The notes beneath the pieces are model-generated. The model was not told where the DNA came from. It did no database searches and saw nothing but the letters and a program-made list of their open reading frames with translations. Source: Ruminococcus sp. (lineage in GTDB: Bacteria > Bacillota > Clostridia > Oscillospirales > Acutalibacteraceae). From it: a stretch of DNA of 49,741 nt. The position numbers were made by a program, and so were the translations under genes. Below are positions 7,116 through 48,627 of the stretch, in pieces. The first letter of the stretch is position 1. Each line of letters begins with the position of its first letter. The stretch is taken from positions 1-49,741 of the forward strand of contig JAFTIP010000023.1 of the NCBI GenBank assembly GCA_017456845.1, written 5' to 3'.

Positions 7116-7118
7116 AGG

Positions 7119-7147
7119 AAACGCTCCGTATTAAGCGGAGCGTTTTT
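7119..7147. terminator. Terminator between convergent MATE and phosphodiesterase genes
   Basis: 10-bp stem AAACGCTCCG / CGGAGCGTTT followed by TT; 3 bp after the MATE stop and just after the stop of the minus-strand gene. Confidence 0.8.
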
Positions 7148-7149
7148 GC

Positions 7150-7692
7150 TTATATCTCAAGTGTCTTGTATATTTCGCCCTCAAGGGTTTTCCAGAGGAA
7201 GGTTTTGCCGTCAAAGGTCATATAGCTGTGAGGCGAATTTTCCTTAGGAATCGAAACCGAGCCGGGGTTAATATAAGTGTGGGTGTTAAACTCTTCAATA
7301 ACAGGCACGTGGGTATGGCCGTGAAGAAGAATGTCTTTGCTTGTTAAAGGCGGAAGGTTAGAGTTGTTGAAGTTGTGGCCGTGGGTGGCGTAAATGAGCC
7401 TGTCGCCTGCACTTAAGATAGCATAGTCGGCTAAAATGGGGAAGTCAAGCACCATCTGATCAACCTCGGTGTCGCAGTTGCCTCTTACTGCAAGGATTTT
7501 CTCCTTAAGCGGGTTAAGCATAGCTATAACCTCTTTTGGGGCGTAGTCTTTGGGTAAATCATTTCTGGGGCCGTGGTAAAGAATATCGCCCAGAAGTAAG
7601 ATTTTGTCTGCCTTTTCGCTTTCAAAAGCTTCTAAAAGCTGTTTGCAGTAGTAAGCTGAGCCGTGAATATCGGATGCAATTAAGAATTTCAT
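7150..7692 (-). CDS. YfcE/MJ0936-type metallophosphodiesterase
   Basis: 180 residues from the ATG at 7692. This start is preferred over an in-frame ATG at 7713 because AGCGAGGT lies at proper distance before it and the protein then begins directly with the conserved MKFLIASDIHGS. All metallophosphoesterase motifs are present: SDIHG, LGDILYHGPR, RGNCDTE, YATHGHNF, LLHGHTHVP and the closing NPGSVSIP. YfcE enzymes hydrolyse phosphodiesters using two metal ions; the physiological substrate is generally unknown. It is downstream of yfhO and the small coupled ORF but separated from them by a hairpin terminator. Confidence 0.92.
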   Translation of the reverse strand: MKFLIASDIHGSAYYCKQLLEAFESEKADKILLLGDILYHGPRNDLPKDYAPKEVIAMLNPLKEKILAVRGNCDTEVDQMVLDFPILADYAILSAGDRLIYATHGHNFNNSNLPPLTSKDILLHGHTHVPVIEEFNTHTYINPGSVSIPKENSPHSYMTFDGKTFLWKTLEGEIYKTLEI

Positions 7693-7714
7693 TATAGTTA
7701 CCTCGCTATACATA

Positions 7715-7749
7715 AAAAGCGGAGTCAGTTGATATCTGACTCCGCTTTT
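7715..7749. terminator. Terminator of the yfhO-small ORF transcript
   Basis: 14-bp stem AAAAGCGGAGTCAG / CTGACTCCGCTTTT with a 7-nt loop. On the minus strand it ends in CTTTTT, right after the stop of the 53-residue ORF. On the plus strand it is followed by a long T-rich tract. Confidence 0.75.
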
Positions 7750-7752
7750 GTT

Positions 7753-7914
7753 TTATTTTTTAGTGAAAGGGTCGTCAGGCAAAGGGGTGGCAGAATCATT
7801 GGGGAATGCACCCTCGGGAGTGTCGCCGTTGTCGGTGCTTGTTTTGCTTGCAATTATATTATCATCGCTTGCAAAAATAGAAATTTTTAATGTGGGTGTA
7901 GTATATTTTTTCAT
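7753..7914 (-). CDS. 53-aa small protein, translationally coupled to yfhO
   Basis: The yfhO stop codon TAA overlaps this ATG by one base (ATGTAATG on the minus strand). The 53-codon frame runs to TAA at 7755-7753, followed at once by the terminator hairpin, so it closes the yfhO transcript. The product begins MKKYTTPTLKISIFASDDNI and ends LPDDPFTKK. It has no signal peptide or membrane helix, and the C-terminal half is acidic, proline- and threonine-rich and probably disordered. Short MKKY-P-L proteins of this style occur in gut Clostridia. Function unknown. Support is position, coupling and the exact fit between stop codon and terminator. Confidence 0.6.
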   Translation of the reverse strand: MKKYTTPTLKISIFASDDNIIASKTSTDNGDTPEGAFPNDSATPLPDDPFTKK

Positions 7915-12623: not shown

Positions 12624-13706
12624 TTAATAGTCATTAGGTGAATTGCGGTAGGTGGTTACTTCTACTGCAAGTTTTTCTACACCTTGGATTAAATCTTTGT
12701 CAATCTCAAGTGAGGTATTGAATGAACCTACATCATCGGTAACACCTGAGCCGAAGTATGGGTGGGTTTCGCCGTATTTTACATAAAGGGTGTTTCCTTC
12801 ACGGTAAACTCCCCACACAAAGCCTTTTACCATACCCGTATGGTAATTGCGGTAAATGTGCACCAAGGCGTTTTCTTCAAAAAACTCTTCGGTGTACTCT
12901 TTGTTTGAGTTTATGGGGTAGGATTTATACTGCTCTATATTTGTAATTAGGCGGTCAGAGTTGCCGAAAGATGCACAGTAACCCAAGTTAACTTCTTCGT
13001 ATTTTATGCTGTCAGCAGAAGCAGGAAGCGCTTCATAAACTGTGGGAACAACAACCTTTGCAATCTGCTTTTGCAGTAAGGTGGCATCCTTTACGTTTAT
13101 TTTGTGGTCACGGTTAACGTCAGCACCACGCTCAAAAAGCTCAATGCTGTAAATTTTATTAACGCTTTCAAGCTTAGCTGTGTATTTCTGCAGGTAGGTG
13201 GCATCTTTGATGTTGACTTCTTTGTCACCATTTGCGTCGCCGTTTTTCAGCACAGCTTCACCGTATAACGGGGCTAAGGCACTATTGATGCCTTCAATAT
13301 TGTTTTTATATGCCTCAGGAACAGTATAAACTAAGTCCTGATTATAAAGGTGAACCAGATATTCGCGGCCTGTATTACGTAGAGGGTTGTAGTATGTGTA
13401 CTCACCAATGTCTGTGCGGTAAGAGAAAGTTTCTTTTGTAGAACCGTAGGTGGCAAGTACGAGGTGGAAATTCTTGCTCTCATCATCAGAGGAATACCCA
13501 TTGATTTCACGGTAGCTTATGTCGCCGTCTATGGTGGGCTCTGAGCCTGTAAGCTCTTTGCAATCCTTAACATACTCACTCCAGAGGTTGAATATGAACT
13601 TAGAATAGGGGTCAGGGAGAGCTTCTGCCGAAGCAGGTAAGACCGCCGAAACCATAAGAGCAACAGTAAGCATTATTGCGAAAATTGAGATAAAAGCTTT
13701 TTTCAT
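12624..13706 (-). CDS. Secreted protein with an internal type I dockerin
   Basis: 360 residues with a clear signal peptide (MKKAFISIFAIMLTVALMVS, cleavage near ASAEA). A two-repeat dockerin sits in the middle (155-218): DANGDKEVNIKD and DVNRDHKINVKD, each followed by AT-x-LQK, with full Ca2+ ligands. It is flanked by an N-terminal domain (30-150) and a C-terminal domain (225-360), neither of which I recognise. Dockerins bind cohesins on scaffold proteins, so the product is probably docked to a cell-surface complex. A central dockerin is unusual; most are C-terminal. The gene is 36 bp downstream of the proline-rich membrane protein and likely the last gene of the ECF sigma operon, so it may be a target or part of the sensing circuit. 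Confidence 0.83.
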   Translation of the reverse strand: MKKAFISIFAIMLTVALMVSAVLPASAEALPDPYSKFIFNLWSEYVKDCKELTGSEPTIDGDISYREINGYSSDDESKNFHLVLATYGSTKETFSYRTDIGEYTYYNPLRNTGREYLVHLYNQDLVYTVPEAYKNNIEGINSALAPLYGEAVLKNGDANGDKEVNIKDATYLQKYTAKLESVNKIYSIELFERGADVNRDHKINVKDATLLQKQIAKVVVPTVYEALPASADSIKYEEVNLGYCASFGNSDRLITNIEQYKSYPINSNKEYTEEFFEENALVHIYRNYHTGMVKGFVWGVYREGNTLYVKYGETHPYFGSGVTDDVGSFNTSLEIDKDLIQGVEKLAVEVTTYRNSPNDY

Positions 13707-13742: not shown

Positions 13743-14924
13743 TTATTTTTTATTACAGGTTAAATCAATATAGTTGTAACCCTTTGATACACGGGTAGTT
13801 ATGCCTGATAAAGTATAACCGCTTGGTACAGAATACACCTTTATAGTGGCAGGAGCACGGAATTTTGCTAAATAGTAATCTCCGTTGCTGTTTGTTGTAT
13901 AAGTGTCTTCAACTTCTCCGTTATAATACACTTTTACAACTGCACCCTTTACAGGGTTGCCGTATTGGTCGAGAACCCTACCTACTGCTCTGTTAACCTC
14001 AACTGAGGTGGGGGGGATATCAGGAGGAAGTGCTTCGGTTGGCGGCATGGGTGCTTGAGTTTCCGGTGCAGCCGGAATAGTTACCTCAATAGGCCGCTCT
14101 GTAGGCTCTTCACAGGGGTCGGAGGGATCTGTGCACAAAGGTTCTGTGAATACGTCTGTTGTAGGCTCGTCAGGTCTTGCGGGACAGTCGGGTGAATCTA
14201 CAGGCGGCTTTTCCGTGGGTTCGGTTGCCTCGTCAGGTCTGGCGTTTGTGTCGGGAGAGGCTGACGGCGCCCATGTAGGCTCTACCGTTGCAGGCTGAGT
14301 GGGTACGTTGCCCTCGGTACTTTCAGTGCCGTCGATTGACGAAGTTGCATCGGGAACCTCAATAGGGTCTGTAGGTAATACTACAGGGGGCTTGGGGCTT
14401 GGGATACCATCGCCTGCAGGCGGAACATCCGGTTGAACAGAGGGTGGTTTTGGCAGAGTAGGTAAAATGGGTAACGTGGGAAGATTAGGTCCTATGGGCA
14501 ATGTAGGTAATGCCGGCAACGTAGGCTTTACCTGAGGCTTGTTTTGGTTCTCATTAGGGTCGGTGGATTGGGTTTTGTTGCTTTCGTTTGGGGTAATATT
14601 GCCTGTTGAGCTCTGAGGCTTTGAATTGCCGGAAACAAGCTCTGTATGCTCGGAGTTTTCGCCCTCAGAGGTTGCGTTGCCGCCTAAGCTGTGTAAAGTT
14701 TCTTCGGTGGGCTCGGTGTAGCTTTGGGGTTTTGTGCCTATTACGTTGGGGTCAGGTGTAAGTACGCCTGACTGCCATATGCCAAATGCACCTAATACAG
14801 CCAAACAAATACTGCATAGGGAAATACTCGCATTAAGTGCAATTTTCTTTTTTCTTTTAACTGACGCTACGTATTCGTCACGCCTGCGGAATACAGCGTC
14901 TGCCATATCCTTATAATTTTTCAT
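13743..14924 (-). CDS. Anti-sigma-like membrane protein: Pro-rich stalk and carboxypeptidase-regulatory-like C-terminal domain
   Basis: 393 residues from the ATG at 14924, which has AAGGAAGG upstream; an in-frame TTG at 14930 is less likely. The start overlaps the sigma gene by 14 nt. Short cytoplasmic segment (1-27), one transmembrane helix (~29-49: ISLCSICLAVLGAFGIW), then a ~250-residue extracellular stalk extremely rich in Pro, Thr, Glu and Ser (PTLPALPTLPIGP; EPTEKPPVD). It ends in a beta-sandwich at ~310-393 of the carboxypeptidase regulatory-like/Cna-B-like type (GRVLDQYGNPVKGAVVKVYY). Position after an ECF sigma gene and a single-pass topology suggest an anti-sigma factor that senses something outside the cell. 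The cytoplasmic part is too short for a classical anti-sigma domain, so sigma binding is inference. Confidence 0.7.
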   Translation of the reverse strand: MKNYKDMADAVFRRRDEYVASVKRKKKIALNASISLCSICLAVLGAFGIWQSGVLTPDPNVIGTKPQSYTEPTEETLHSLGGNATSEGENSEHTELVSGNSKPQSSTGNITPNESNKTQSTDPNENQNKPQVKPTLPALPTLPIGPNLPTLPILPTLPKPPSVQPDVPPAGDGIPSPKPPVVLPTDPIEVPDATSSIDGTESTEGNVPTQPATVEPTWAPSASPDTNARPDEATEPTEKPPVDSPDCPARPDEPTTDVFTEPLCTDPSDPCEEPTERPIEVTIPAAPETQAPMPPTEALPPDIPPTSVEVNRAVGRVLDQYGNPVKGAVVKVYYNGEVEDTYTTNSNGDYYLAKFRAPATIKVYSVPSGYTLSGITTRVSKGYNYIDLTCNKK

Positions 14925-15465
14925 AAACAAAGCCTTCCTTGTTAAGTTCTGATTTTAACGACTGTTTTGCTCGATATAAAAGCGTTTCTACGTTTCGGAC
15001 TGATTTTTTGAGAACGATTGCGGTTTCCTGATTACTGAAGTTTTCGAAGTATACAAGCCACAAAACCTGCTTGTACTGAGGACTTAATTTCTCCATAGCG
15101 TGATGAAGGGTTATTTTGTCCTCTTTTTTTATGTACTGTGCCTCTAAGGTTTCGGTTTCCTCTTTAATTTCAGGCAGTTCATCATAAGAAATCTCAGTTG
15201 CCCTGTTTTTTCTTAAATAGTCAAGGGCGATATTTCTGCCAATGGCGTAAAGCCATGTTTTAAATGAGGACTTTCCCGAAAAACGGGGCTTTCTGGTAAC
15301 GATTTTAACAAAGGTGTCCTCTGCCAAATCTTCCGCAATAAAGATGTTTTCAGTAAAATTGTTGATGTAAAGTATTAGTCCGTCCTTATAGTCCCTAATT
15401 ATTTCGATAAAGCCGTTGTCATCACCATCAAGGAAACGGCGGTAGCTACAAGCACCGTTATCCAT
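14911..15465 (-). CDS. ECF RNA polymerase sigma factor
   Basis: 184 residues from the ATG at 15465 (GGGAAAGGAGC upstream); an open frame continues to 15537 but lacks a ribosome site. Region 2 has IAEDLAEDTFVKIV and the KTWLYAIGRNIALDYLRKNR helix. Region 4 has LSPQYKQVLWLVYFENFSNQ and the helix-turn-helix ETAIVLKKSVRNVETLLYRA. It directs transcription of a specific regulon, released by its anti-sigma partner. It is co-transcribed with the proline-rich membrane protein (14-nt overlap) and the dockerin gene downstream. Confidence 0.9.
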   Translation of the reverse strand: MDNGACSYRRFLDGDDNGFIEIIRDYKDGLILYINNFTENIFIAEDLAEDTFVKIVTRKPRFSGKSSFKTWLYAIGRNIALDYLRKNRATEISYDELPEIKEETETLEAQYIKKEDKITLHHAMEKLSPQYKQVLWLVYFENFSNQETAIVLKKSVRNVETLLYRAKQSLKSELNKEGFVYEKL

Positions 15466-15645
15466 TGATATGCTCCTTTCCCCTTGTTTGGCTCTTTCAC
15501 TTATTAGACGTAAGTTTTCGCAAAAACTCACACCCAAAATTATAACTTTTTTAAGGTTTATTTACTATTTGCATAAATCATCAAATATCGACTCGATAAT
15601 TGTATAAAATGACGAATATTTGTGGGTAAGGTTATGGTGTATCAT

Positions 15646-15784: not shown

Positions 15785-16264
15785 ATGAGCATAGTTTCAT
15801 TTGAAAATGCGGTAAAAACCTTTTCCGATACTGTTTACAGGGTTTCACTTAATATCCTTAAAAATCCCGAAGACAGCAAAGATGTTATGCAAAATGTTTT
15901 TTTAAGGTATTTTAAGCATCAGCAGGAGTTTAAGAGCGAAGAGCACATAAAGGCGTGGCTTATAAGGGTAGCTGTAAATGAGAGTAAGCGCTATCTTAAA
16001 ATCAACAGCAGAAACGAAAGCGTTCCTCTGGAAGAAGTGGCAAACAGTCTTTTTGCCGAAAATAAGGAGGAGGGAGTTGTTTTCAGCGAGGTTATGAGCC
16101 TTGATGAAAAGTACCGCACAGTTATACTTCTTTACTATTATGAGGGGTATGACGTTAAAGAGATTGCTCGTATTTTGAGGCGTAATGCCGCTACTGTCCG
16201 AACACAGCTTTCTCGTGCACGGGAGCTTTTAAAATCAAAATTTAAGGAGGATTTTTATGAGTAA
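15785..16264 (+). CDS. ECF RNA polymerase sigma factor (SigW-like group)
   Basis: 159 residues; ATG preceded by AAAGGACGGTGAG. Region 2: NPEDSKDVMQNVFLRYFKH and HIKAWLIRVAVNESKRYLK. Region 4: LDEKYRTVILLYYYEGYDVK and IARILRRNAATVRTQLSRAR. It is followed by its probable anti-sigma partner, overlapping it by 8 nt (ATGA-type overlap at 16257), so translation is coupled. It points away from the other ECF operon, with the small palindromic element between them. Confidence 0.92.
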   Translation: MSIVSFENAVKTFSDTVYRVSLNILKNPEDSKDVMQNVFLRYFKHQQEFKSEEHIKAWLIRVAVNESKRYLKINSRNESVPLEEVANSLFAENKEEGVVFSEVMSLDEKYRTVILLYYYEGYDVKEIARILRRNAATVRTQLSRARELLKSKFKEDFYE

Positions 16265-17288
16265 TACCGACAATATCCGCAGAATGTATGGGGGGATTAC
16301 CGCCCCTGAGGATGCTGTGGAAAAATGCCTTTCTATAAAAGAAAGCAACAAGGTGGTTAAATTTCCTGTTAAGAGAGTTATTGCCCTTGCCGCTTGCCTG
16401 AGTGTTTTGCTGGCGGTGGCTGTGCCTGTTGTTGCCGTCAAAACTAAAAACGGCTTCGGTGCAACTCAGAGTTATGGTGAAAAAATTCAGAGTGAATACC
16501 CCCATAAAACCGACACCTTCTATAAGGAAATTGACGGAAGCTCCCTTCTTGTTACCGAGGGAAGTAAACTTTCCGACACTCATCAGGGGCTTGAGGTGAA
16601 GGTTGACGAGGCTTACTACGACGGAGCATTCGTATATGTTTCTTTCGTGGGTGAGTATGACAAATCCCTTGAGGGCGTGGACCGATTTTGCTATGAGAAC
16701 CACGAGGACTATATTATGATAGACGGCGAATATGTTAAAGCCGATTTGTCAGGCTACAGCTTTGCACTTTTAAACAGCGACGAGGGTTTAGGCGGAGTCC
16801 TTGGATTTATATATCCATACGACAGGGAAAATTTGGAAGTTAAAATAAATATCCCAAAGCTTCAGATTCGAGGTACAGAAGAGGATGCTGAAGGAAATGC
16901 TGAGGTGATAGGAGAGATTGATGAAGCTTTCGAGCTTGATTTTGCGGTTAAGAAAAGTGCTCCTTCTGCCCTTGTGTATAATGCAGAGGCAAGCCGTGTA
17001 GAAGTGTCAGTCCTTGGAGTAACAGCCTCAAAGGGCGGTATCTGTGTAGAGATTTTCGTTCCTCAAAAGGAGGTTGACAGTAAAGCGGGAATAATTGCCA
17101 CTGTGAAAAATGAGTCGGGCGAGAGAGCCGGCTTTATTATGGGCAAAATTGAGGAAACCGAGAGCGGTATTGTTCGCAGACAGTATTTTACTCCCATTGA
17201 GGGCAAGGTGCTTGATGTGGCAGTTTATGATAAGAACAACATGGAAGCAGGCATGCTTGCGAGCTTAGAAAACATAAGTATAGGCTGA
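16257..17288 (+). CDS. DUF4179-type anti-sigma-like membrane protein
   Basis: 343 residues: a cytoplasmic N-terminus of ~40 residues, one transmembrane helix (~42-62, VIALAACLSVLLAVAVPVVAV), then an extracellular beta-rich region of ~270 residues. The segment after the helix (YKEIDGSSLLVTEGSKLSDT, then VKVDEAYYDGAFVYVSF) matches the pattern of DUF4179 proteins encoded behind ECF sigma factors in Firmicutes. It probably holds the sigma factor encoded just upstream at the membrane. The signal sensed is unknown. Confidence 0.78.
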   Translation: MSNTDNIRRMYGGITAPEDAVEKCLSIKESNKVVKFPVKRVIALAACLSVLLAVAVPVVAVKTKNGFGATQSYGEKIQSEYPHKTDTFYKEIDGSSLLVTEGSKLSDTHQGLEVKVDEAYYDGAFVYVSFVGEYDKSLEGVDRFCYENHEDYIMIDGEYVKADLSGYSFALLNSDEGLGGVLGFIYPYDRENLEVKINIPKLQIRGTEEDAEGNAEVIGEIDEAFELDFAVKKSAPSALVYNAEASRVEVSVLGVTASKGGICVEIFVPQKEVDSKAGIIATVKNESGERAGFIMGKIEETESGIVRRQYFTPIEGKVLDVAVYDKNNMEAGMLASLENISIG

Positions 17289-27307: not shown

Positions 27308-30268
27308 GTGAAAAAATCAGTCTTTGCTTTTATTTCACTTTTGCTTATGATGACAATTGTATTTTCATTTGTTGCAATGTTTTCGTCAGCTGCAGAAGAA
27401 GCTAATAATGAATACGTATGGAGCGAGGAAACTCCCTTTATAATGTATGAGGACGAAAAGGGAATCCGTTATATTGGTTCTACAGGCAATGTTTCAGCAG
27501 AAAATCCTTCCGAGGATTCAGACACAGAGCCTGAGGAAAACGTAAGATACACAGGTGAGCTTGCTGCAGAGGCAGGGGCAGACCTGCCTTCTCAGATTGA
27601 TTTAAGCACCTCAAAGTATTTTCCTGCAATCGGCAATCAGGGCTCTCTTGGCTCTTGTGCCACATGGGCAACGGTTTACTATCAGTTTACTTATGAGATG
27701 AACCGTATGAGAGGCACCACAGCAACTCCCGAAAACACAGCGGCTCCCAATTTTGTATACAACTTACTTTCTCAGAAGGATGCTTCCGGTACATCTGCCG
27801 AGGAAAATTATGCTGTTCTTAAGACTCAGGGCGTTCCTCCCATTACGTTGGTTCCTTACAACGATAAAGAGCACTTAAGCTGGAATGCTCAGGAAAAAAT
27901 ATGGAGAGAGGCTTTAAACTGGCGACTTGAAGATTACAAGGAACTTGGTTACATTGGCAGAGACGGCAAAGAGATTACAACTGCCACCGACCCTGATCTT
28001 AACGAGATTAAGTCAGCTCTTAATAACGGTCAGATAGTTTCTTTCAGTGCATTTATTAATTGCTGGGTTTTTGATACAATCAAAACTCATCCCGATGCTC
28101 CGGGTAACGCAAATCACGCAGGCGAGAAAATCGTAAAATATACTGACGGATTCAAAGGTAGTCACCGTATGGTTATCGTCGGCTATGACGACGAAATCTG
28201 GTTTGACCACAACTCAAACGGCAAGGTAGACGAAGGCGAGAAGGGTGCTTTCAAGATTGCCAACTCATGGGGTACAACCTTTGCCAATAAGGGCTTCTGC
28301 TGGATTTCTTACGATGCTCTTAACGACAAAACCTCTGTTGATGGCGGTTATTCAAAGGATGACAGAGAAGCTTGTATGAGCAGCTTTTTCACAATTACCG
28401 TAAAGCCATACAAAGAAGGTTCAGGTATTTATCTCAAGTTTACCCTCAACACTTCTGATAGAACTCAGGTTTATGTAAGGGTTGACTCAGAGCATAACGG
28501 AACTGCTGAGAAAGCCTCCTTTTTAAGCGGTTTGTATTACTCAAAGCCTGACAATGTGTTTTCTTTTGGCGGTTCAAACATGGCTGAGGACGGTACCTTC
28601 TGCTTCCCTTTGGATAATGTATCTCCTGAGCTTACACCTGAGAATTTCAACGAATATAACTTTACCGTTACAATAAAAGACACCAAAACCGATTCAATAC
28701 CTCTTAAGGTAAAGAATCTTGAGATTGTAAACGAGCACGAGGGCAAAAGCTACAAGCCTTCCGTAGCTACTCTTCCTGTTCTTAACGGCACCGAGCAGAC
28801 TATGAATATGAAGGCGTGCAATACTGACAATAAGGTTATCTACTACATCGGTTACGATGAGCCTACTCTTCATTATCGTGAGAACGGCACATGGAAAGAG
28901 GTCGAAATGGAAGCAAACGAGGAACATTTAGGCCATAACTACAAGTATGTTATCAAAAACATCCCCGAGGATACTTACCTTTATTTTACCGATAAAAACG
29001 GTAACAAAGACGATAATTCCGGCAGTTACTATGTTGCAAAAGAAAGGCTTAATTACTTCCGTACCAAAGGCGTCAGGGAAGAGCTTGTGCTGAAAGACTT
29101 TTTAATTGACCCGGAAATTATGGATGTAAACACAAACAGATATTTCATTGCTGACGTAACAGGCGGTTACGAGCCTTATTATTATCAATACACCTTTGAG
29201 CATCTTGAAAGCGGTCAGTTGGCTGTTGAGAAATTCAGAAAAAATAACGAGATTTTACACTACTTTAATCTTGAAGGTCAGTATAAAATTACTGCCGAGG
29301 TTAAAGACCAGACAGGTGACATAGCAAGTATTTCAAAACTTATAACTGTTACCGATGTTCCCTTTATTTTCGAAGAGCTTACAGCTACAAGTGAGTTTGG
29401 CGAAAATCTTTTTGCAGGCGAGCCTGTAAACTTTTTTGCCCGTACAAACTTTGAGAAAATAGCATATATGAGAACTACCTATGATTTTGTAGTAAAAGAT
29501 TCAAGCGGTAAAATCTGCCAAGAGGCAAGCGTTAAACCCACAAACTGCAGTACAAACTTGGGCTATAGTCTGATTGATCATTACTGGACTCCCGAGAGGG
29601 CAGGTAAGTACACAGTTACTGTGTCTGAAACCGACTTGAACAACGAATACGCTGAAAAGTCCCTTACATTCACAGTCCTTAACAAGATTTACGGCGATGC
29701 CAACGGTGACGGCGAGGTTAACATTAAGGATGCCACCGCTATCCAGAAGTGCCTTGCAGGCGTAAGTCAGGAGTCTGCATTTATCATCGAATTCGCAGAT
29801 TGCGACACCAATGAGGTTATTACCATCAAGGATGCAACCTGTATCAGAAAATATCTTGCCAATGTTCAGGGTTCAGGTAAGGCAGGCCAGTTTATGGAGT
29901 ATGTACCTCCCGTAACCGAGCCTGAAACCACAGCTCCCACCCAGCCTCAGACAGAGCCTAAACCTGTGGGTAAAAACACAGTTACCTTTACAAACTCCTT
30001 TAACTGGGGCGGTACAATCTCCTGCTACTATTGGAGCGACAGCAATAAAAATATGACCACATGGCCCGGCAAAGCTATGACCAAAGCAGGAGTAAACGAA
30101 TTTGGCGAAACATATTACACCTTTGAGGTGCCTGCAGGTGCAACCTATGTAATCTTTACCAACGGCTCAAGCCAGACTGTTGACATTCCTTACGGAGGCG
30201 GAGAGCTTAAGTTCTATCCCTTATCGGAAACCGACTCACAAGGCCACTATAAAGTTTCCAACTGGTAG
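27308..30268 (+). CDS. Secreted papain-family (C1A) protease with dockerin and C-terminal CBM26-like starch-binding module
   Basis: 986 residues, GTG start with AACGGAGG upstream. Signal peptide at 1-28. Peptidase C1A domain (~95-375) with all active-site residues: Gln111 and Cys117 in IGNQGSLGSCATWA, His286 in GSHRMVIVGYDD, Asn319 in FKIANSWG. Between His and Asn there is an EF-hand-like loop DHNSNGKVDEGE that probably binds Ca2+. Beta-rich domains follow (~380-790). Dockerin at ~795-855 (GDANGDGEVNIKDATAIQK, then DCDTNEVITIKDATC), a Pro/Thr linker, and a ~100-residue module at ~887-986 with FTNSFNWGGTISCYYW and MTTWPGKAM, which resembles starch-binding CBM26. The protein would be exported, docked to a cohesin and attached to starch. 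Own promoter and terminator; a paralogue follows. Confidence 0.87.
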   Translation: MKKSVFAFISLLLMMTIVFSFVAMFSSAAEEANNEYVWSEETPFIMYEDEKGIRYIGSTGNVSAENPSEDSDTEPEENVRYTGELAAEAGADLPSQIDLSTSKYFPAIGNQGSLGSCATWATVYYQFTYEMNRMRGTTATPENTAAPNFVYNLLSQKDASGTSAEENYAVLKTQGVPPITLVPYNDKEHLSWNAQEKIWREALNWRLEDYKELGYIGRDGKEITTATDPDLNEIKSALNNGQIVSFSAFINCWVFDTIKTHPDAPGNANHAGEKIVKYTDGFKGSHRMVIVGYDDEIWFDHNSNGKVDEGEKGAFKIANSWGTTFANKGFCWISYDALNDKTSVDGGYSKDDREACMSSFFTITVKPYKEGSGIYLKFTLNTSDRTQVYVRVDSEHNGTAEKASFLSGLYYSKPDNVFSFGGSNMAEDGTFCFPLDNVSPELTPENFNEYNFTVTIKDTKTDSIPLKVKNLEIVNEHEGKSYKPSVATLPVLNGTEQTMNMKACNTDNKVIYYIGYDEPTLHYRENGTWKEVEMEANEEHLGHNYKYVIKNIPEDTYLYFTDKNGNKDDNSGSYYVAKERLNYFRTKGVREELVLKDFLIDPEIMDVNTNRYFIADVTGGYEPYYYQYTFEHLESGQLAVEKFRKNNEILHYFNLEGQYKITAEVKDQTGDIASISKLITVTDVPFIFEELTATSEFGENLFAGEPVNFFARTNFEKIAYMRTTYDFVVKDSSGKICQEASVKPTNCSTNLGYSLIDHYWTPERAGKYTVTVSETDLNNEYAEKSLTFTVLNKIYGDANGDGEVNIKDATAIQKCLAGVSQESAFIIEFADCDTNEVITIKDATCIRKYLANVQGSGKAGQFMEYVPPVTEPETTAPTQPQTEPKPVGKNTVTFTNSFNWGGTISCYYWSDSNKNMTTWPGKAMTKAGVNEFGETYYTFEVPAGATYVIFTNGSSQTVDIPYGGGELKFYPLSETDSQGHYKVSNW

Positions 30269-30365
30269 CCGTTAGCCACGGCAGGGCGTTCCCGACCATT
30301 AGCCACGGTGGGCGATTCCGCCTTTGGAAAGGTTCGCATAGAGGAAAATGCTCATTAACGGCGGG
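30268..30365 (+). repeat. Dispersed repeat: one truncated and one full copy
   Basis: It begins on the last base of the protease stop codon. A truncated head (GCCGTTAGCCACGGCAGGGC, ending ~30293) is followed by a full element: ATTAGCCACGG, GCCTTTGGAAAGG, ending CATTAACGGCGGG. The ends are inverted (CCGTTA/TAACGG). Confidence 0.7.
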
Positions 30366-30435
30366 GGTCAGCCACGGTAGGACAATTTACCTTTATAAAG
30401 GTTTATACAAATCAAATATATGTGTCAACGGCAGG
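30366..30435 (+). repeat. Variant copy of the dispersed repeat
   Basis: It starts GGTCAGCCACGG, contains CTTTATAAAGG and TATACAAATCAAATA, and ends GTCAACGGCAGG. The same variant lies at 33639-33700 downstream of the paralogue. Its tail supplies the left arm of the terminator. The rest of the 30269-30587 gap holds that terminator and the next promoter. Confidence 0.6.
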
Positions 30436-30463
30436 TTAGCAAAAAGCTGACCTGCCTTTTTTT
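30430..30463 (+). terminator. Terminator of the first dockerin protease
   Basis: 11-bp stem GGCAGGTTAGC / GCTGACCTGCC (one G-T pair), AAAAA loop, then TTTTTTT. Confidence 0.85.
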
Positions 30464-30525
30464 ATCTGCTGATTCAAATTTTAGGCGGATTTTTGCTTTG
30501 TTGAATTAGCTTTTCTATCAATATA

Positions 30526-30554
30526 TTGCATTAGCTTTTTAGATGAATTAAAAT
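30526..30554 (+). promoter_or_regulatory. Promoter of the second dockerin protease
   Basis: TTGCAT (30526-30531), 17-bp spacer, TAAAAT (30549-30554), sharing its flanks with the first protease promoter. Confidence 0.6.
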
Positions 30555-30587
30555 TAAAATGATGAAATTTCTGAATGGAGGATTAGC

Positions 30588-33566
30588 GTGAAAAAGCTAT
30601 TTTTTACCTTTATATCTATTCTTCTGATACTTATGACTTCGGTTTCTTCAATTTCACTGGTATCTGCAACTGATAAGAAAACAAAAGACGAGTTTACATG
30701 GAGCGAGGAAACTCCATTTATAAGATACGAAGATTCTGAGGGAATACACTACAAAGGCCCTGTGGGAAACTTTGTTTCCACAGCAGATGAATACTCTGCC
30801 GAAGCTTACAGCCCTTCAGAAAGCAAATCGCCAAGAAACACAGGCGAGCTTGCATCAAATATTATATACGATAATCTGCCTCAGACTGTGGATTTAGGTT
30901 CAAGTAAGTATTTTCCTCCTATTGGCAATCAGGGCGGTCTTGGCTCCTGTGCCACATTTTCAACCACTTACTATCAGCTTTCTTACGAGGTTAACAAAAT
31001 AAGAGATGTTCAGGCAACTGCCGAAAATACCCTTTCTCCTCAGATTGTTTATAACCTGATGAGTACAGATAACACCAGCGGAACAACCGCCGAGTTTAAC
31101 TATGGCTTTCTCAGTGTCCACGGTGCGCCGACAATGGCGGTGCTTCCTTATTCCGATTCTGACAGGTTATCATGGCACCCGCAAGAGGCAATCTGGAAAA
31201 ACGCAATGAACAGCCGTGTGGACGAGTTGTTTACTATTGATGATATCGGCGATGAAAATGCTCAGGTCACCTCAGCTGATGACGAAGACCTTAATGAAAT
31301 TAAGTATGTTTTATCACAGGGTCACCCCATTGTTTACTCAGCTTTTATTTACAGCTGGGTATCAACCAAAATCGAGGCTCATCCTGATGCTCCCGAAAAC
31401 AATAAATATTTAGGCGAAGAGATTGTTAAATATCAGGACGGCTTCAACGGTAGCCATTCTATGATTTTAGTCGGCTACAACGACAACATCTGGGTAGACC
31501 TTAACTCCAACGGCAATGTGGATGAAGGCGAAATGGGTGCCTTTAAAATTGCCAATTCATGGGGTGAGGGCTACGCAAATAAAGGTTTTTGTTGGGTAGC
31601 TTATGATGCAATTAATAAAGTAAGCTCTGTTCAGGGCGGATTTGCAGGCAACCGAGGCCGTATATTTGAGGGCTTTAAGTGGATAACCGTAAAGCCCTAC
31701 TCAGAAGGTGCAAAAATCTATGTAAGATTTACCCTCAACACCGCTGACCGAGTTCAGATGAACGTTGATTTTGCCAGCGAGTGTAACGGTATTGACGAAA
31801 GCAACAAGTTTCTCCGCCACTCTTCATACCGACACGACGGCAACCACCTCAGCTTTGACGGCACCAAAAACGCAATTGACGGCACTTTCTGCTATGCTCT
31901 TGATAATGTATCACCTGAGCTTTGTGCAGAGAATTTTAACAACTACAATTTTTATGCTACCTTTGAAGACACCGACGCTGACGGCAAAAAGATTGAGGTT
32001 AAAAATGTTGAGGTTGTAAACGAGCACACAGGCAAGGTTTACAAAATGGCTTCAGAGCCTTTCTCTGTTGACGGCGAAAAGAGAACCATTACCCTTAAAG
32101 AAGCCGAAACCACCGACAAAACTGTTTTTTACATCGGTTTTGATAATCCTACCATTCACTACAAGGTAGGCGATGGTGAGTTTAAAAAAGCTCAGATGGA
32201 GTATACCGAAACAAGGCTGGGGCATAACTACCGCTTCGTTATTGAAGATGCATCTGATGATGTAACTTTGTTCTTTACAGGCGAAGACGGAAGGATCGAC
32301 GACAACAACGGCGAATTTTTCAAAGCCACTGAAAGGCTTAATTTTTATCGCACAAAGGACGCCCGCCAGCCCCTTAAACTAAATGGTTTTGAGTTTACCA
32401 ACGGCTTGCCCGATATAAACAAACGCAGTTATTTCAGCTACAACGTTACAGGCGGTTACGAGCCTTATAACTACAACATTACCATAGAAAATCTTGACAC
32501 AGGCGAGGTAAAGGAATATCCCTACGATTATAAGTATGACAAAAGCCACGCCTTTCTTCAGGAAGGAAAACACAAGTTTTCCATAGAAGTAAGAGACCAG
32601 TCAGGCGACACTTACCTTTACGAAGAGGTTATTGATATTATCAACCGACCCTTTGTTTTTGATGAGCTTTCGGCTACATCCAAGTACGGAGAAAGTCTTT
32701 TTACAGGCGAGAACATAAGCTTCTATGCCCGTACCGACTTTGAAAGGATTATTTCCCGAGGTCCTCAGAAGAGCCTTTACGAATATGTTATTAAGGATTC
32801 TGAGGGCAAGGTTTGCTACACCGAAACCTTAAAAAGCAATAAGTATCATCTGGGCGATTGTGTAAGCCACATTTACCTTGACTGGACTCCCGCAAAGAAA
32901 GGCACATATACCGTCACGGTATCTTCAACTGACGACAACAAGACATACGCTGAGAAAACAACGGAATTTACTGTGGTTGATAAAATTTATGGCGATGCCA
33001 ACGGTGACGGCGAGGTTAACATTAAGGATGCCACCGCAATTCAGAAATGTCTTGCAGGTGCTGAGCAGGATTTTGTATTTATCGGTGAACTTGCGGACTG
33101 CGACAGCAACAAGGCGGTTACAATCAAGGACGCTACCTGTGTCCGAAAGCTCCTTGCAAATGTTGGAAACTTCTTTGAGGCAGGAAAGGTTATTGAGTAT
33201 ATTCCGCCTTACACAGAGCCCGAAACTACAATAGCCACCCAGCCTCAGACAGAGCCTAAACCCGTGGAGAAAAACGCAGTTACCTTTACAAACTCCTTTA
33301 ACTGGGGAGGAACAATGTCCTGCTACTATTGGAGCGATAGCAATAAAAATATGACCACATGGCCCGGCAAAGCTATGACCAAAGCAGGAACCAACGAGTT
33401 TGGCGAAACATATTACACCTTTGAGGTGCCTGCAGGTGCAACCTATGTAATCTTTACCAACGGCTCAAGCCAGACAGTTGACATTCCTTACGGAGGCGGA
33501 GAGCTTAAGTTCTATCCCTTATCGGAAACCGACTCACAAGGCCACTATAAAGTTTCCAACTGGTAG
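30588..33566 (+). CDS. Second secreted papain-family protease with dockerin and CBM26-like module (tandem paralogue)
   Basis: 992 residues, GTG start with AATGGAGG upstream; same order of domains as the gene at 27308. Signal peptide at 1-27. Catalytic Gln115 and Cys121 (IGNQGGLGSCATFS), His290 (GSHSMILVGYND), Asn323 (FKIANSWG); the Ca2+-like loop is DLNSNGNVDEGE. Dockerin at ~800-860 (GDANGDGEVNIKDATAIQK, then DCDSNKAVTIKDATC). The C-terminal starch-binding-type module is nearly identical to that of the first protease, even at DNA level, while the N-terminal and protease domains differ substantially. That pattern points to recent gene conversion or an unequal exchange. Different cleavage specificity of the two enzymes is plausible but inferred. 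Confidence 0.87.
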   Translation: MKKLFFTFISILLILMTSVSSISLVSATDKKTKDEFTWSEETPFIRYEDSEGIHYKGPVGNFVSTADEYSAEAYSPSESKSPRNTGELASNIIYDNLPQTVDLGSSKYFPPIGNQGGLGSCATFSTTYYQLSYEVNKIRDVQATAENTLSPQIVYNLMSTDNTSGTTAEFNYGFLSVHGAPTMAVLPYSDSDRLSWHPQEAIWKNAMNSRVDELFTIDDIGDENAQVTSADDEDLNEIKYVLSQGHPIVYSAFIYSWVSTKIEAHPDAPENNKYLGEEIVKYQDGFNGSHSMILVGYNDNIWVDLNSNGNVDEGEMGAFKIANSWGEGYANKGFCWVAYDAINKVSSVQGGFAGNRGRIFEGFKWITVKPYSEGAKIYVRFTLNTADRVQMNVDFASECNGIDESNKFLRHSSYRHDGNHLSFDGTKNAIDGTFCYALDNVSPELCAENFNNYNFYATFEDTDADGKKIEVKNVEVVNEHTGKVYKMASEPFSVDGEKRTITLKEAETTDKTVFYIGFDNPTIHYKVGDGEFKKAQMEYTETRLGHNYRFVIEDASDDVTLFFTGEDGRIDDNNGEFFKATERLNFYRTKDARQPLKLNGFEFTNGLPDINKRSYFSYNVTGGYEPYNYNITIENLDTGEVKEYPYDYKYDKSHAFLQEGKHKFSIEVRDQSGDTYLYEEVIDIINRPFVFDELSATSKYGESLFTGENISFYARTDFERIISRGPQKSLYEYVIKDSEGKVCYTETLKSNKYHLGDCVSHIYLDWTPAKKGTYTVTVSSTDDNKTYAEKTTEFTVVDKIYGDANGDGEVNIKDATAIQKCLAGAEQDFVFIGELADCDSNKAVTIKDATCVRKLLANVGNFFEAGKVIEYIPPYTEPETTIATQPQTEPKPVEKNAVTFTNSFNWGGTMSCYYWSDSNKNMTTWPGKAMTKAGTNEFGETYYTFEVPAGATYVIFTNGSSQTVDIPYGGGELKFYPLSETDSQGHYKVSNW

Positions 33567-33638
33567 CCGTTAGCCACGGCAGGGCGTTCCCGCCTTTGGA
33601 AAGCTTCTGGTTAGAGGTAAATGCAAATTAACGGCGGG
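33566..33638 (+). repeat. Full copy of the dispersed repeat
   Basis: It starts on the last base of the stop codon: GCCGTTAGCCACGGCAGGGC, CGCCTTTGGAAAGCTTC, and ends AAATTAACGGCGGG. It is almost identical in its first half to the copy at 30268. Confidence 0.7.
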
Positions 33639-33700
33639 TGTCAGCCACGGATAGGCTTGACTGACTCTATACAAATCAAATACACACATCAACGGCGGGG
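33639..33700 (+). repeat. Variant copy of the dispersed repeat
   Basis: TGTCAGCCACGGATAGG, then TATACAAATCAAATACACA, ending CATCAACGGCGGGG; the counterpart of 30366-30435. Confidence 0.6.
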
Positions 33701-33746
33701 TTTTAACTACGGTTTATAAAAGTGGTGAATCAACCCGCCGTTTTTG
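33691..33746 (+). terminator. Probable terminator of the second dockerin protease, built from repeat ends
   Basis: AACGGCGGGGTT (33691-33702) can pair with AACCCGCCGTT (33732-33742) with one bulge and a ~30-nt loop, followed by TTTG. The two arms are the ends of oppositely oriented repeat copies. Confidence 0.5.
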
Positions 33747-33804
33747 CAGTTTATTTTTATATGTAAGCTATCCAAAGGCGAACTGCCCTCAGGTGGCTGA
33801 CCTG
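33732..33804 (-). repeat. Inverted copy of the dispersed repeat
   Basis: On the minus strand: CAGGTCAGCCACCTGAGGGC, TTCGCCTTTGGATAGCTTAC, ending AAAAACGGCGGGTT. It faces the copies at 33566 and 33639. Confidence 0.65.
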
Positions 33805-33805
33805 A

Positions 33806-33846
33806 AAAAACACCCGAACAGGACTAAATCGTGTTCGGGTGTTTTT
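33806..33846. terminator. Bidirectional terminator between convergent secreted-protein genes
   Basis: Long stem AAAAACACCCGAACA / TGTTCGGGTGTTTTT with an 11-nt loop, T-rich on both strands, 17 bp from the stop of the minus-strand cohesin-like gene. Confidence 0.85.
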
Positions 33847-33862
33847 GTTTTAGTTTGTTTAG

Positions 33863-35128
33863 TTAAATAAGGTTTGCAAGCTTTTTCTGAATCTGTGTTG
33901 CGTCTTTTATGTTTACTTTACCGTCGGTAAGGTAATCCGCAAGGATAAGCTGTTCATTGTCAAACTGCTCTAATTTTGCAAGAACCTTCTGAATAAGCGT
34001 TGCATCGCGGATGTTAAGCTTAGCGTCCCGGTTTACATCGCCAAGCTCAAATCCTGTTGCGGGAGCTGTGGTGAATGTGGGGTTAGTGGAGAAAGTTTCA
34101 GTGGGTTCTGTTGAAGCTGTTGCAGCGGTGCTTTCATAAGGATTTGTAGGTACAGTTATTTCGGTAGGGTTGGTGGGATTTGCAGGATTTGTGAGGTCAG
34201 GTGTTGTTGCGGATGTTTCAGAAGGCTCTGTAGAAACTGTGATTGCAGTCGTGGGAACCTCAATAACATCAAGCTCCATAACTTCTCTGATGCTTACGCC
34301 TGAATTTTCTTCTTTGCTTAAGAAGAAGTAGGATTTTTCACCGCCTGCTACGGTCATATCCTGAACTATAAAGTCAAGGTAAGCTTCGCCTGTGCCTGCT
34401 GCTGTAAATTCAAAAGTAAGTAAAAGCTTTTCTTCTTTAAAATTGTAACCCCCAAGGTTAGAGGAGTTTACTGCAATAAGACCACTTATGTTTGTGTTGA
34501 AATATGTGTCAATAAGTGCAGGGCAACAGGTCTCGGCAGTTGTGCCTGTAAGGCTTAACTTGCTTGCGTCAAAGTTAATCACAGTCTGAATATCCTCAAA
34601 AGTCTCAGTTGCCTTAAGAAAAACGCTGTATGTAAATTTATTACCTTTGTTTGCGATGATTTCCTGATTATTTGTTTTAACTTTAAGATTTTCGCCGTTA
34701 TCAGAGGGAGCACCTGTGCCGTCCTTTTTAATCTTAAGAAGGTCGGTGTCTGTGTTGTATTCAAATGTATAGTTACCGCCTGTTGAAAGCAAAGTGCATT
34801 TCGCGTCTACAGTTTCGCTGAGCTTAATGCCGTCTTTGGAGATTCTGGCAGTTACATCTTTAATCGTTGTGGGGTGGCTTAAGCTTGTGCCGTTTTCATC
34901 AATTGTAAACTGATAGCTTCCTGCATCAAGCTTTGTGCTTAAGAAAAAGTTTCGGTTGTCCTCAGTTGTCATCTCTTTGCCTTCGAAATCATTGAAAGCA
35001 GCAAAAAGAGTAACACAATTTTCTGTTTCTACAGTTTCATCAGTGTTTCCTGCAAAAACAGAAATACTTTGTAATGAAAGTAACATACAAAGCACAAGAA
35101 TTAATGACAAAAATCCTTTAAATTTCAT
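33863..35128 (-). CDS. Secreted protein with cohesin-like domain and C-terminal dockerin (adaptor scaffoldin candidate)
   Basis: 421 residues from the ATG at 35128 (GAGGTG upstream; an in-frame GTG at 35137 is part of that site). Signal peptide at 1-27. Domain 1 (~37-135), with LFAAFNDF, GSYQFTIDENGTSL and GGNYTFEYNTDTDLLKI, resembles the small beta-sandwich modules of starch enzymes. Domain 2 (~147-275: FTYSVFLKATETFEDIQTVI, INFDASKLSL, KLLLTFEFTAAGTGEAYLDF) has the pattern of a cohesin. A Thr/Pro linker follows, then a dockerin (~358-421): DVNRDAKLNIRDATLIQK and DYLTDGKVNIKDATQIQK. The second loop has Leu at the third Ca2+ ligand, so it is degenerate. A cohesin plus a dockerin would make it an adaptor linking dockerin enzymes to a larger scaffold. 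The cohesin call is by pattern only. Confidence 0.7.
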   Translation of the reverse strand: MKFKGFLSLILVLCMLLSLQSISVFAGNTDETVETENCVTLFAAFNDFEGKEMTTEDNRNFFLSTKLDAGSYQFTIDENGTSLSHPTTIKDVTARISKDGIKLSETVDAKCTLLSTGGNYTFEYNTDTDLLKIKKDGTGAPSDNGENLKVKTNNQEIIANKGNKFTYSVFLKATETFEDIQTVINFDASKLSLTGTTAETCCPALIDTYFNTNISGLIAVNSSNLGGYNFKEEKLLLTFEFTAAGTGEAYLDFIVQDMTVAGGEKSYFFLSKEENSGVSIREVMELDVIEVPTTAITVSTEPSETSATTPDLTNPANPTNPTEITVPTNPYESTAATASTEPTETFSTNPTFTTAPATGFELGDVNRDAKLNIRDATLIQKVLAKLEQFDNEQLILADYLTDGKVNIKDATQIQKKLANLI

Positions 35129-35217
35129 TATGGTCACCTCGTGAATGTGTTGCTTTTATCATATCAAACTTTAACGAAAAACACAAGGTATTAAGAAGTT
35201 TGGCTTAAAAATAAATA

Positions 35218-46572: not shown

Positions 46573-48627
46573 TTAAGGAGTTGTAAAGGTGTAAACTTCG
46601 CTGTACTGTGGCCCTACGTTGGTGGTATAAACGTAAAATCTGTAGTAATACGTTGTGTTTGGTGTAAGTGCCGGGGCCTCTGCATTTGAGCCGCCGCACT
46701 GAACTGTGCAGTAGGTGAGGTATGTGCCTGTTTTCCAGCTTGCGACCTTTGTCATATTACCGCCCTCGGGTCTCATCATAAGTCCGATTTCTGTAAGCTG
46801 GGAGCAATCAGCAGTTACGTTACAGCCTAAGAGTGCTGAGGTAGAGGTAAGATTTTTAATGTACATTTCGTCAAATGATATAGGGCTTTTAATCCAAACG
46901 GCATAAAGATGGATGCTGGCGTCTTTGTCGTAAACTGTTCCTGCACCATATTCAACGTTACCTGTGGGGGATGTAGACCAACCCATAAACACATAGCCTG
47001 CTCTTGTAGGGTCAGAAGGGGAAAGAGAAACGGGCTTGCCAATTTCTTTTATATGGCTTTCAGGGGTGTAAACACCGCCGTTGGCATCATAAGAAATGGT
47101 GTAGTATTCGGTTTTCTGCCAAACGGGAATAAGCTTGTAGTAGGTGGCGTTAGAGTTATCCTCGGTTACCCAGTTTCCGCCCATAGAGCTGTTGTTTCCT
47201 GCATAAAGCATTTTATATTCCAGATTATCTTTTGAAATTTCAGCAAATGCTTTCCAAGTGTTGTCGGTGGTAAGGTACTTTGCCGATGTACCCTTGGTGG
47301 CTTTAAACAGCTTGTAGCCTATAAGAGTGTAGCCTTCTCGGTTAATCGTAGGTACCTCAAATCTTTCGCCGTATTTTACTGTAAAATCTTCGCCCTTGGA
47401 AAGCTTAAAGGTGAACTCATTCTGGAAAAAATTAAGGTATTTTGTTTCAACGTATCCTGATGTTTTGTTACCGTAAACATCAACGTAGTAAACGTTATAC
47501 CAAACTTCGCCCAAGCAGTTCTTTACGGCAGAGTTTACCGCTACTGCGTTGCCGCGGGTAAGGGTTACAAGGCTGTTGTTTTCGCCGTTTTTGCCTACAG
47601 AATAGGGTGTGGAGCGGATATCGGTGGTTGATTTAGTCGTGTAAACACCTGTTTTGCAAGTAGCTTTTTTAGCATAGGGAGCTTTTCCGCAATTGGAGCA
47701 GTGATTGAATTGGTCATAGTTATGACCTGTTTTTGGCAGAGTGATGGTTTCTATATAAGCGTCGCAGAGGGAGCAATGACGCTGTGCACTGCCGTTGGCT
47801 GTGCACGTAGCGGCAACAGTGTGTTTAGAATAGGTAGCAGAATGAGAGCAGTAAGCAGGACGTACAAATATCTTTGTAGTAGCGTGACCGCTCATACAGT
47901 TTACTTTGCTTTTTGAGATATTAACGGTATTAACCTTGTCAGCGGAGTTGCCTTCAATAGAATAAGTAATATCTGTAGAGACAATACCAACGTGGGATTT
48001 AACACCGCATTTATCACAGGCGTAAAAAAGAATGTCACCGGGTTTTCTTTCGGCCTCAGATACCACTTTGCCGCCTCGGTCGTTGATAAGTGTGTTGAAC
48101 ATGCCTCCGCAGCCTGCATTAATAGGAATCAGGTTAGTTACCCCTGCCTGATAAGCACACCACGAAACAAAGGCAGCACACCAGGCACGGTCGTATTTGC
48201 TTAAAGAGTAGTTGGTACCGCTGGCTGTGTAAACGGTACTGCGGTATTTGCTGATGTTGTCGTTGTCGTTGCAACCGTAATACCAGAAGTTGTATTCGCA
48301 AACGTCAAGCACAGCGTTGTAGGGTTTATAAACACCGTTGCTTATGTAATATAAGGGCATTTTGCCTCCTGACTGATAGCCGTCAAGGTCCTGATAGTTA
48401 ATGCCTTCAAGATATCCTGCCTGACTTTCGGCGATTTTGGCAATGTTAATAGCTTTGTCGGTACCCATATTGTTTCGGGCATTCATAAGCTGGGTGTAAT
48501 ATTTACTTCCTCTGTACGGAGCCGAAAAAGTATCTTTGCCGTTTACTGCCGAAGCGTTAATTATACTAAGCGGTATAACGCCAAGTATCATTATAGTAAT
48601 AAGAACGATTGAAGTCAGACGTTTCAT
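46573..48627 (-). CDS. Secreted CHAP-domain protein with SH3-like, InlB-type repeat and Fn3-like modules
   Basis: 684 residues with a signal peptide (1-28). CHAP/NlpC-type domain at ~130-255: active Cys150 in DRAWCAAFVSWCA, His212 in KSHVGIVST, then YSIEGNS. A cysteine/histidine-rich segment (~262-315) contains ATCTANGSAQRHCSLC and HCSNCGKAP. An SH3-like region follows (~325-390), then a Listeria-Bacteroides (InlB B-type) repeat at ~510-580 (ISYDANGGVYTP, GYVFMGWSTSPTGNV, LYAVW), and an Fn3-like domain at ~590-684 (TSTSALLGCNVTADCSQLTE). CHAP enzymes cleave peptidoglycan as amidases or endopeptidases, so a cell-wall hydrolase with adhesion modules is likely. No dockerin and no sorting motif. 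Confidence 0.82.
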   Translation of the reverse strand: MKRLTSIVLITIMILGVIPLSIINASAVNGKDTFSAPYRGSKYYTQLMNARNNMGTDKAINIAKIAESQAGYLEGINYQDLDGYQSGGKMPLYYISNGVYKPYNAVLDVCEYNFWYYGCNDNDNISKYRSTVYTASGTNYSLSKYDRAWCAAFVSWCAYQAGVTNLIPINAGCGGMFNTLINDRGGKVVSEAERKPGDILFYACDKCGVKSHVGIVSTDITYSIEGNSADKVNTVNISKSKVNCMSGHATTKIFVRPAYCSHSATYSKHTVAATCTANGSAQRHCSLCDAYIETITLPKTGHNYDQFNHCSNCGKAPYAKKATCKTGVYTTKSTTDIRSTPYSVGKNGENNSLVTLTRGNAVAVNSAVKNCLGEVWYNVYYVDVYGNKTSGYVETKYLNFFQNEFTFKLSKGEDFTVKYGERFEVPTINREGYTLIGYKLFKATKGTSAKYLTTDNTWKAFAEISKDNLEYKMLYAGNNSSMGGNWVTEDNSNATYYKLIPVWQKTEYYTISYDANGGVYTPESHIKEIGKPVSLSPSDPTRAGYVFMGWSTSPTGNVEYGAGTVYDKDASIHLYAVWIKSPISFDEMYIKNLTSTSALLGCNVTADCSQLTEIGLMMRPEGGNMTKVASWKTGTYLTYCTVQCGGSNAEAPALTPNTTYYYRFYVYTTNVGPQYSEVYTFTTP

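Follow-up and report, generated by a model that had tools for sequence, protein, structure and literature searches.

Tandem papain-type proteases with dockerin and CBM26 modules in a Ruminococcus genome with parts of a Ruminococcus bromii-type amylosome

Contig JAFTIP010000023.1 of the Ruminococcus sp. assembly GCA_017456845.1 was analysed over its whole length of 49,741 nucleotides (hereafter, the window). It corresponds to contig C14 in a genome of 62 contigs, with a size of 1.79 Mb and a completeness of 93%. It contains two tandem genes on the plus strand, encoding the proteases P1 (986 amino acids (aa); 27308..30268) and P2 (992 aa; 30588..33566), and a convergent gene on the minus strand (33863..35137), encoding a protein with a cohesin and a dockerin, hereafter the Coh-Doc adaptor. 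P1 comprises a signal-like N-terminus, a papain-type (C1A) catalytic domain, a beta-rich middle part, a dockerin and a CBM26 module, and P2 has the same architecture. The signal-like N-termini of both proteins were judged by eye, and the beta-rich middle part of P1 gave weak matches to Y_Y_Y and PKD, which were below the cut-off. The two proteases are 55% identical overall and also over the C1A domain.

The catalytic domain comprises residues 93-336 in P1 (27584..28315, plus strand), with Q111, C117, H286 and N319, and residues 97-342 in P2 (30876..31613, plus strand), with Q115, C121, H290 and N323; both proteins, therefore, have the complete Gln/Cys/His/Asn set of the active site. Between His and Asn lies an EF-hand-like loop, namely DHNSNGKVDEGE in P1 (residues 300-311; 28205..28240, plus strand) and DLNSNGNVDEGE in P2 (residues 304-315; 31497..31532, plus strand). 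This loop was considered as a special calcium switch and was rejected, since the same pattern before the catalytic Asn was found by eye in 12 of 17 open reading frames (ORFs) outside the genus; it is therefore a trait of a clostridial C1A subfamily and not part of the novelty of P1 and P2.

The dockerins are of type I, with a duplicated calcium-loop repeat, and were found by Pfam profiles at 29690..29857 (plus strand) in P1, 32988..33155 (plus strand) in P2 and 33878..34045 (minus strand) in the adaptor; the scores were 33.2, 26.4 and 35.4 bits at a cut-off of 22.9. CBM26 modules follow at 29981..30187 in P1 and 33279..33485 in P2 (both plus strand), with 52.8 and 48.7 bits at a Pfam cut-off of 28.1. 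Residues 891-986 of P1 match the CBM26 at the C-terminus of R. bromii Amy10 end to end, over all 96 residues, and the motif WPG with nearby aromatic residues is conserved in the alignment of the protease modules with R. bromii Amy10 and Amy16. The whole dockerin-CBM26 tail has its top match in Amy10 (E 6e-39), followed by Amy16 (E 3e-35). The tail of Amy10 (9qf8) has the same order, dockerin and then CBM26; the catalytic part of Amy10, in contrast, is described as a pullulanase (PMC5814915) and not a protease.

Pfam profiles confirmed the original prediction, made from the sequence alone, that two tandem C1A proteases each end in a dockerin and a module of a starch-binding family, and the active sites were found intact, as it had stated. 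Among the single domains, the dockerins, the CBM26 modules and the C1A domain of P2 (24.3 bits; Peptidase_C1 cut-off, 20.7) were recovered above the cut-offs, the C1A domain of P1 (19.7 bits) fell just under, and the cohesin of the neighbour was missed. P1 and P2 are predicted by these modules and active-site residues to be secreted papain-type cysteine proteases with a dockerin and CBM26; their proteolysis, substrate, starch binding and cohesin partner are what we infer from the sequence.

The Coh-Doc adaptor has 424 aa from the GTG at 35137, or 421 aa from the likelier ATG at 35128, and is represented by a signal-like N-terminus, an X25-like domain, a cohesin domain (34283..34687, minus strand), a Thr/Pro-rich linker and the C-terminal dockerin. 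The cohesin gave no match to Pfam PF00963 at E up to 1 and was, for this reason, studied by profile comparison and folding, which showed profile homology to the cohesins of this genome and to accepted cohesins, and a predicted fold with the best match to the cohesins of R. bromii Sca5 (the structure-comparison rows mainly span residues 156-291 and barely cover the X25-like part). The convergent neighbour with a cohesin-like domain and a dockerin was thus recovered, the first by profiles and predicted fold and the second by Pfam. The X25/AMPK-CBM-like N-terminal domain (34721..35035, minus strand) is a weak assignment: the window copy matched X25_BaPul_like below the cut-off (E 0.073), four of four homologues matched at E up to 0.5 (best 2.5e-4), and a comparison with PDB structures, taken up to E 1, gave no X25 structure.

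Since the protein bears a dockerin in addition to the cohesin, it looks like an adaptor. R. bromii Sca5 (cohesins 7urp and 7uvg) is described with two X25 modules, two cohesins and a sortase signal (PMC9112005), whereas the window protein has one cohesin, and a C-terminal dockerin in place of the sortase signal, which points to an adaptor rather than an anchor. Its dockerin has an identity of 0.77 to that of a protein on contig C60 and of 0.75 to that of a Coh-Doc protein on contig C61. Contig C61 (L151, 3482-6790, minus strand) contains two adjacent X25-like/cohesin proteins, one of which has a dockerin and represents a second Coh-Doc adaptor; on contig C41 (L158:1715-3388), a third protein combines the two modules, its dockerin preceding the cohesin match (E 2.6e-7). 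At the syntenic locus of a metagenome-assembled genome (MAG) from roe deer (L088), the Coh-Doc gene is replaced by a gene at 6940-10470 (minus strand) for a 1176-aa protein, which has a dockerin at its N-terminus as well as InlB-type and BspA leucine-rich repeats.

Genome analysis showed the presence of 65 Pfam dockerin matches in 64 ORFs, two of the matches being under the cut-off; by hmmscan, 61 of these ORFs reached an E value of 0.001 or better for Dockerin_1. The genome also gave about 12 matches to cohesin, 33 to CBM26 (32 above the cut-off) and 18 to GH13, several of the last being pieces of one gene. By coordinates, four of the dockerin ORFs contain GH13, two of these with CBM26; five contain C1A, three of these with CBM26, namely, the window pair and one on contig C6; and three contain a cohesin match. 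A sixth C1A gene of the genome, on contig C49, runs off the contig end. The dockerin GH13 ORF on contig C26 has R. bromii Amy16 as its top match (E 7e-242), with nearly the same order of modules as given for Amy16 (PMC5814915, Table 1), and the dockerin GH13 ORF on contig C10 has R. bromii Amy12 (E 0). A run of six small single-cohesin ORFs is located on contig C4 (L150, G000:C4:34748-43164), with CBM26 matches in the same cluster; a PPTG-like C-terminal segment was seen by eye in five of the six, and the one that was scanned gave a Gram_pos_anchor match under the cut-off (E 0.043). Accordingly, the dockerin, CBM26, GH13 and cohesin parts, together with the Amy12 and Amy16 relatives, mark the source, by its parts, as an amylosome-type organism, in agreement with the starch-linked cohesin-dockerin complex that had been proposed. 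A match to an RsgI-like domain was also found in one dockerin ORF of this genome.

The CBM26 modules of P1 and P2 are 0.96 identical at the DNA level and the C1A domains 0.63; in the tandem pair of another species (genome G106), the values are 0.95 and 0.60. Between the two species, the first copies share 0.77 of DNA positions in both CBM26 and C1A, while for the second copies the shares are 75% (CBM26) and 69% (C1A). The modules are alike within the pairs and less alike between the species, which indicates, judging from DNA identity, that CBM26 is homogenised between tandem copies separately in the two species.

For the analysis of distribution, a family profile made from the part before the dockerin was searched in 161 genomes of the genus, 81 of them good. 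From 53 matches, two second pieces of ORFs and one match without a locus were removed, leaving 50 distinct ORFs, of which 41 are complete. The full set of C1A, dockerin and CBM26 is present in 30 of the 41 complete ORFs, from 13 genomes; two others have C1A with weak CBM26 only and three have C1A alone, and modules could be hidden in one of the 41 (L135), which has masked letters. Of 48 C1A stretches, 44 retain the residues Q/C/H/N, as do 40 of the complete ORFs; among the four exceptional stretches, two are cut before the residues, and the others, the complete G111:C6 and the open-ended G011:C224, have substitutions.

Among 391 genomes drawn from across the class, 16, the source genome included, have the catalytic domain at E up to 1e-15. 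Local profiles applied to 17 relative ORFs outside the genus (loci L241-L245 substituted for cut versions of those genes) detected a dockerin in five and CBM26 in none, so that the clostridial C1A subfamily with the EF-hand-like loop shares the catalytic domain of P1 and P2 and differs in CBM26. When named genomes were searched with P1 and P2, relatives were returned from two loci, both in ruminant-gut MAGs (roe deer colon and sheep rectum). In a different C1 subfamily, an ORF of the genus (L265, G197:C8, 1450-4218, plus strand) combines Peptidase_C1, Lectin_like and four CBM26 modules, with no dockerin match.

Dockable proteases as such are already known, as examples were described for R. bromii, in a rumen gene catalogue and in the Limousia mucinolysome. 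Doc14 of R. bromii (L2-63_00436) is listed as SP PEP A-S Doc with 550 aa (PMC9112005, Table 1) and was detected by proteomics in the ethylenediaminetetraacetic acid elution of the cell-surface amylosome (PMC9112005). Similar to what is predicted for P1 and P2, it is a secreted dockerin-bearing peptidase in an amylosome; it differs in being about half their size and in having no CBM26 in that listing. By analogy with the many C1-dockerin ORFs of about 550 aa in the genus, Doc14 is probably a C1 peptidase, and the CBM26-bearing form can be regarded as a variant of a known dockable protease. The Limousia mucinolysome includes dockerin peptidases (PMC12997984); RflaF_05439 of R. flavefaciens is dockerin-bearing, with a peptidase module that is NlpC/P60-like (PMC3573020), unlike the C1A domain of P1 and P2; and in the rumen gene catalogue, proteases account for 4% of dockerin proteins, either of all or of those without a carbohydrate-active enzyme domain, as the wording is ambiguous (PMC7260996). 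What they share with P1 and P2 is the occurrence of a protease or peptidase-like module together with cohesins and dockerins, and none of the cited passages joins a protease to a starch-binding module. A dockerin protease with CBM26 or starch binding was not found in the open-licence papers searched, which did not include the 2015 and 2025 papers on the R. bromii amylosome.

The explanation that we prefer, with moderate confidence, is that P1 and P2 serve the starch-targeted removal of granule protein, alongside amylases. The dockerin would plug the proteases into a cohesin of the amylosome of the cell and CBM26 would tether them to starch, placing them beside the amylases on the granule surface, where they could cleave the proteins coating or embedding the starch of plant grain, exposing glucan and freeing peptides. 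The tandem catalytic halves have diverged and may prefer different peptides, while gene conversion would keep the same starch-binding module in both copies; the Coh-Doc adaptor could extend the complex and is a candidate seat for the proteases. The protein matrix around cereal starch is described as limiting amylolytic bacteria (PMC9653558), and in grain silage, the addition of protease raised in situ starch digestibility (PMC10162983). It is from the modules that we infer the degradation of granule protein. The proteolytic arm of a starch-linked complex, as originally proposed, is partly supported, namely, in its modules, active sites and amylosome parts, and loses in novelty, as dockable proteases were known from Doc14 and rumen dockerin proteins.

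Several observations weigh against this explanation. The family is present in 21 of the 161 genomes of the genus, and in 11 of the 81 good ones, and is therefore not needed for life in the genus. Six of the complete ORFs consist of C1A and a dockerin without CBM26; the starch module is therefore dispensable. The dockerins of the proteases form a divergent group: in a table of identities that took in 61 of the 65 dockerin matches (the local dockerin profile was trained on 60), their mean identity is lowest with the four amylase dockerins (0.40) and reaches 0.43-0.44 with the remaining groups, which are mutually mostly at 0.49-0.55. Because they are unlike every other group and least like the amylase dockerins, they may dock elsewhere than the amylases do. 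The cohesin gene is present at two of four syntenic loci, namely, in the window and L089, and is absent from the locus in G106 and L088; with the divergence of the protease dockerins, this led us to set aside the window cohesin as a fixed partner of P1 and P2. The homogenisation of CBM26 need not reflect selection and could simply follow from the tandem repeats. Finally, binding alone can persist, since the complete homologue G111:C6 (L216, 2125-4311) carries S/D/Q/A at the Q/C/H/N positions and still has the dockerin, CBM26 and calcium-type loop, and substitutions at the active site are also present in the open-ended G011:C224.

General nitrogen scavenging, in which dockable proteases release peptides near the cell and CBM26 merely parks them, granule protein being no special target, is an unlikely alternative, although it is the one that survives best. 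It accounts for the fact that nearly all genomes of the genus (156 of 161) have some kind of C1 peptidase and for the C-terminal dockerin on a C1 ORF at 19 of 20 loci, mostly of about 550 aa, the size of Doc14, and without CBM26, the twentieth locus being the Lectin_like G197:C8; these loci were hand-picked from 19 genomes, one of which, G098, also has the P1/P2 family. The six complete family ORFs without CBM26 fit it as well. On the other hand, CBM26 is carried by 30 of the 41 complete ORFs of the family, is homogenised in two species and occurs in four copies in another lineage, which speaks against this alternative. A protective function, in which P1 and P2 would break down amylase inhibitors of plants or digestive proteases of the host in the vicinity of the complex, is improbable. 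Cereals contain amylase/trypsin inhibitors, and the modules imply that the proteases would share a location with the amylases on starch, but no feature of the sequence indicates such a substrate, and this function and proteolysis of the matrix are not separable here.

Processing of the complex itself, as the original prediction had also suggested, would mean maturation or turnover of the amylosome by P1 and P2. The proteases can be in the complex, and its scaffoldins have long Thr/Pro-rich linkers; a processing enzyme, however, should be near universal, and the subfamily is patchy, while the adaptor query matched all 60 genomes of the genus in another draw, mostly through the dockerin. We therefore set this role aside as the main one and consider it quite improbable for the subfamily, while the commoner proteases of the size of Doc14 could perform it. 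It is very improbable that starch binding is the selected function and the proteins are adhesins, with proteolysis secondary or being lost, for which the substituted ORFs G111:C6, possibly a dead protease turned adhesin, and G011:C224 speak, since the active-site residues are kept in 40 of 41 complete ORFs.

Terminator-like hairpins were found between gdhA and P1 (27175..27205, plus strand) and between P1 and P2 (30430..30456, plus strand). Because they follow gdhA and P1, an operon of gdhA with the proteases was set aside, and P1 is likely a transcription unit separate from gdhA; the region contains 18 such hairpins at 9.5 expected from shuffles, an excess of only about twofold. The fourth dockerin of the window is located in the middle of a 360-aa protein (12624-13706, minus strand) without another Pfam match at E up to 0.001. 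Beside its gene are genes of two sigma-70-family factors (14911-15537, minus strand, and 15785-17288, plus strand), the second of which is followed by that of a DUF4179 protein, a possible sigma/anti-sigma pair. The gene at 46573-48627 (minus strand) encodes a CHAP-domain protein of 684 aa, which has an InlB-type repeat and, below the cut-off, a match to a purple-acid-phosphatase N-terminal-like domain.

On a wider scale, and more tentatively than the removal of granule protein by P1 and P2, the amylosome of the genus may have a dedicated starch-addressed proteolytic branch, with CBM26 put on secreted C1 proteases at least twice: in the C1A-dockerin-CBM26 form, with its own dockerin specificity group, and in the Lectin_like C1 form with four CBM26 modules and without a dockerin. 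Coh-Doc adaptors may seat this branch apart from the amylases, and it would open protein-coated grain starch that is beyond the reach of amylases alone. P1 and P2 illustrate the traffic of modules between amylases and proteases, as well as gene conversion that preserves the similarity of a binding module despite divergence of the catalytic halves, and a small number of purified modules would suffice to test the idea. The way in which bacteria of the gut and rumen pass the protein around cereal starch matters for feed use and the fermentation of resistant starch; if the idea is true, amylosomes equipped with proteases that can both dock and bind starch would be dual machines for protein and starch.

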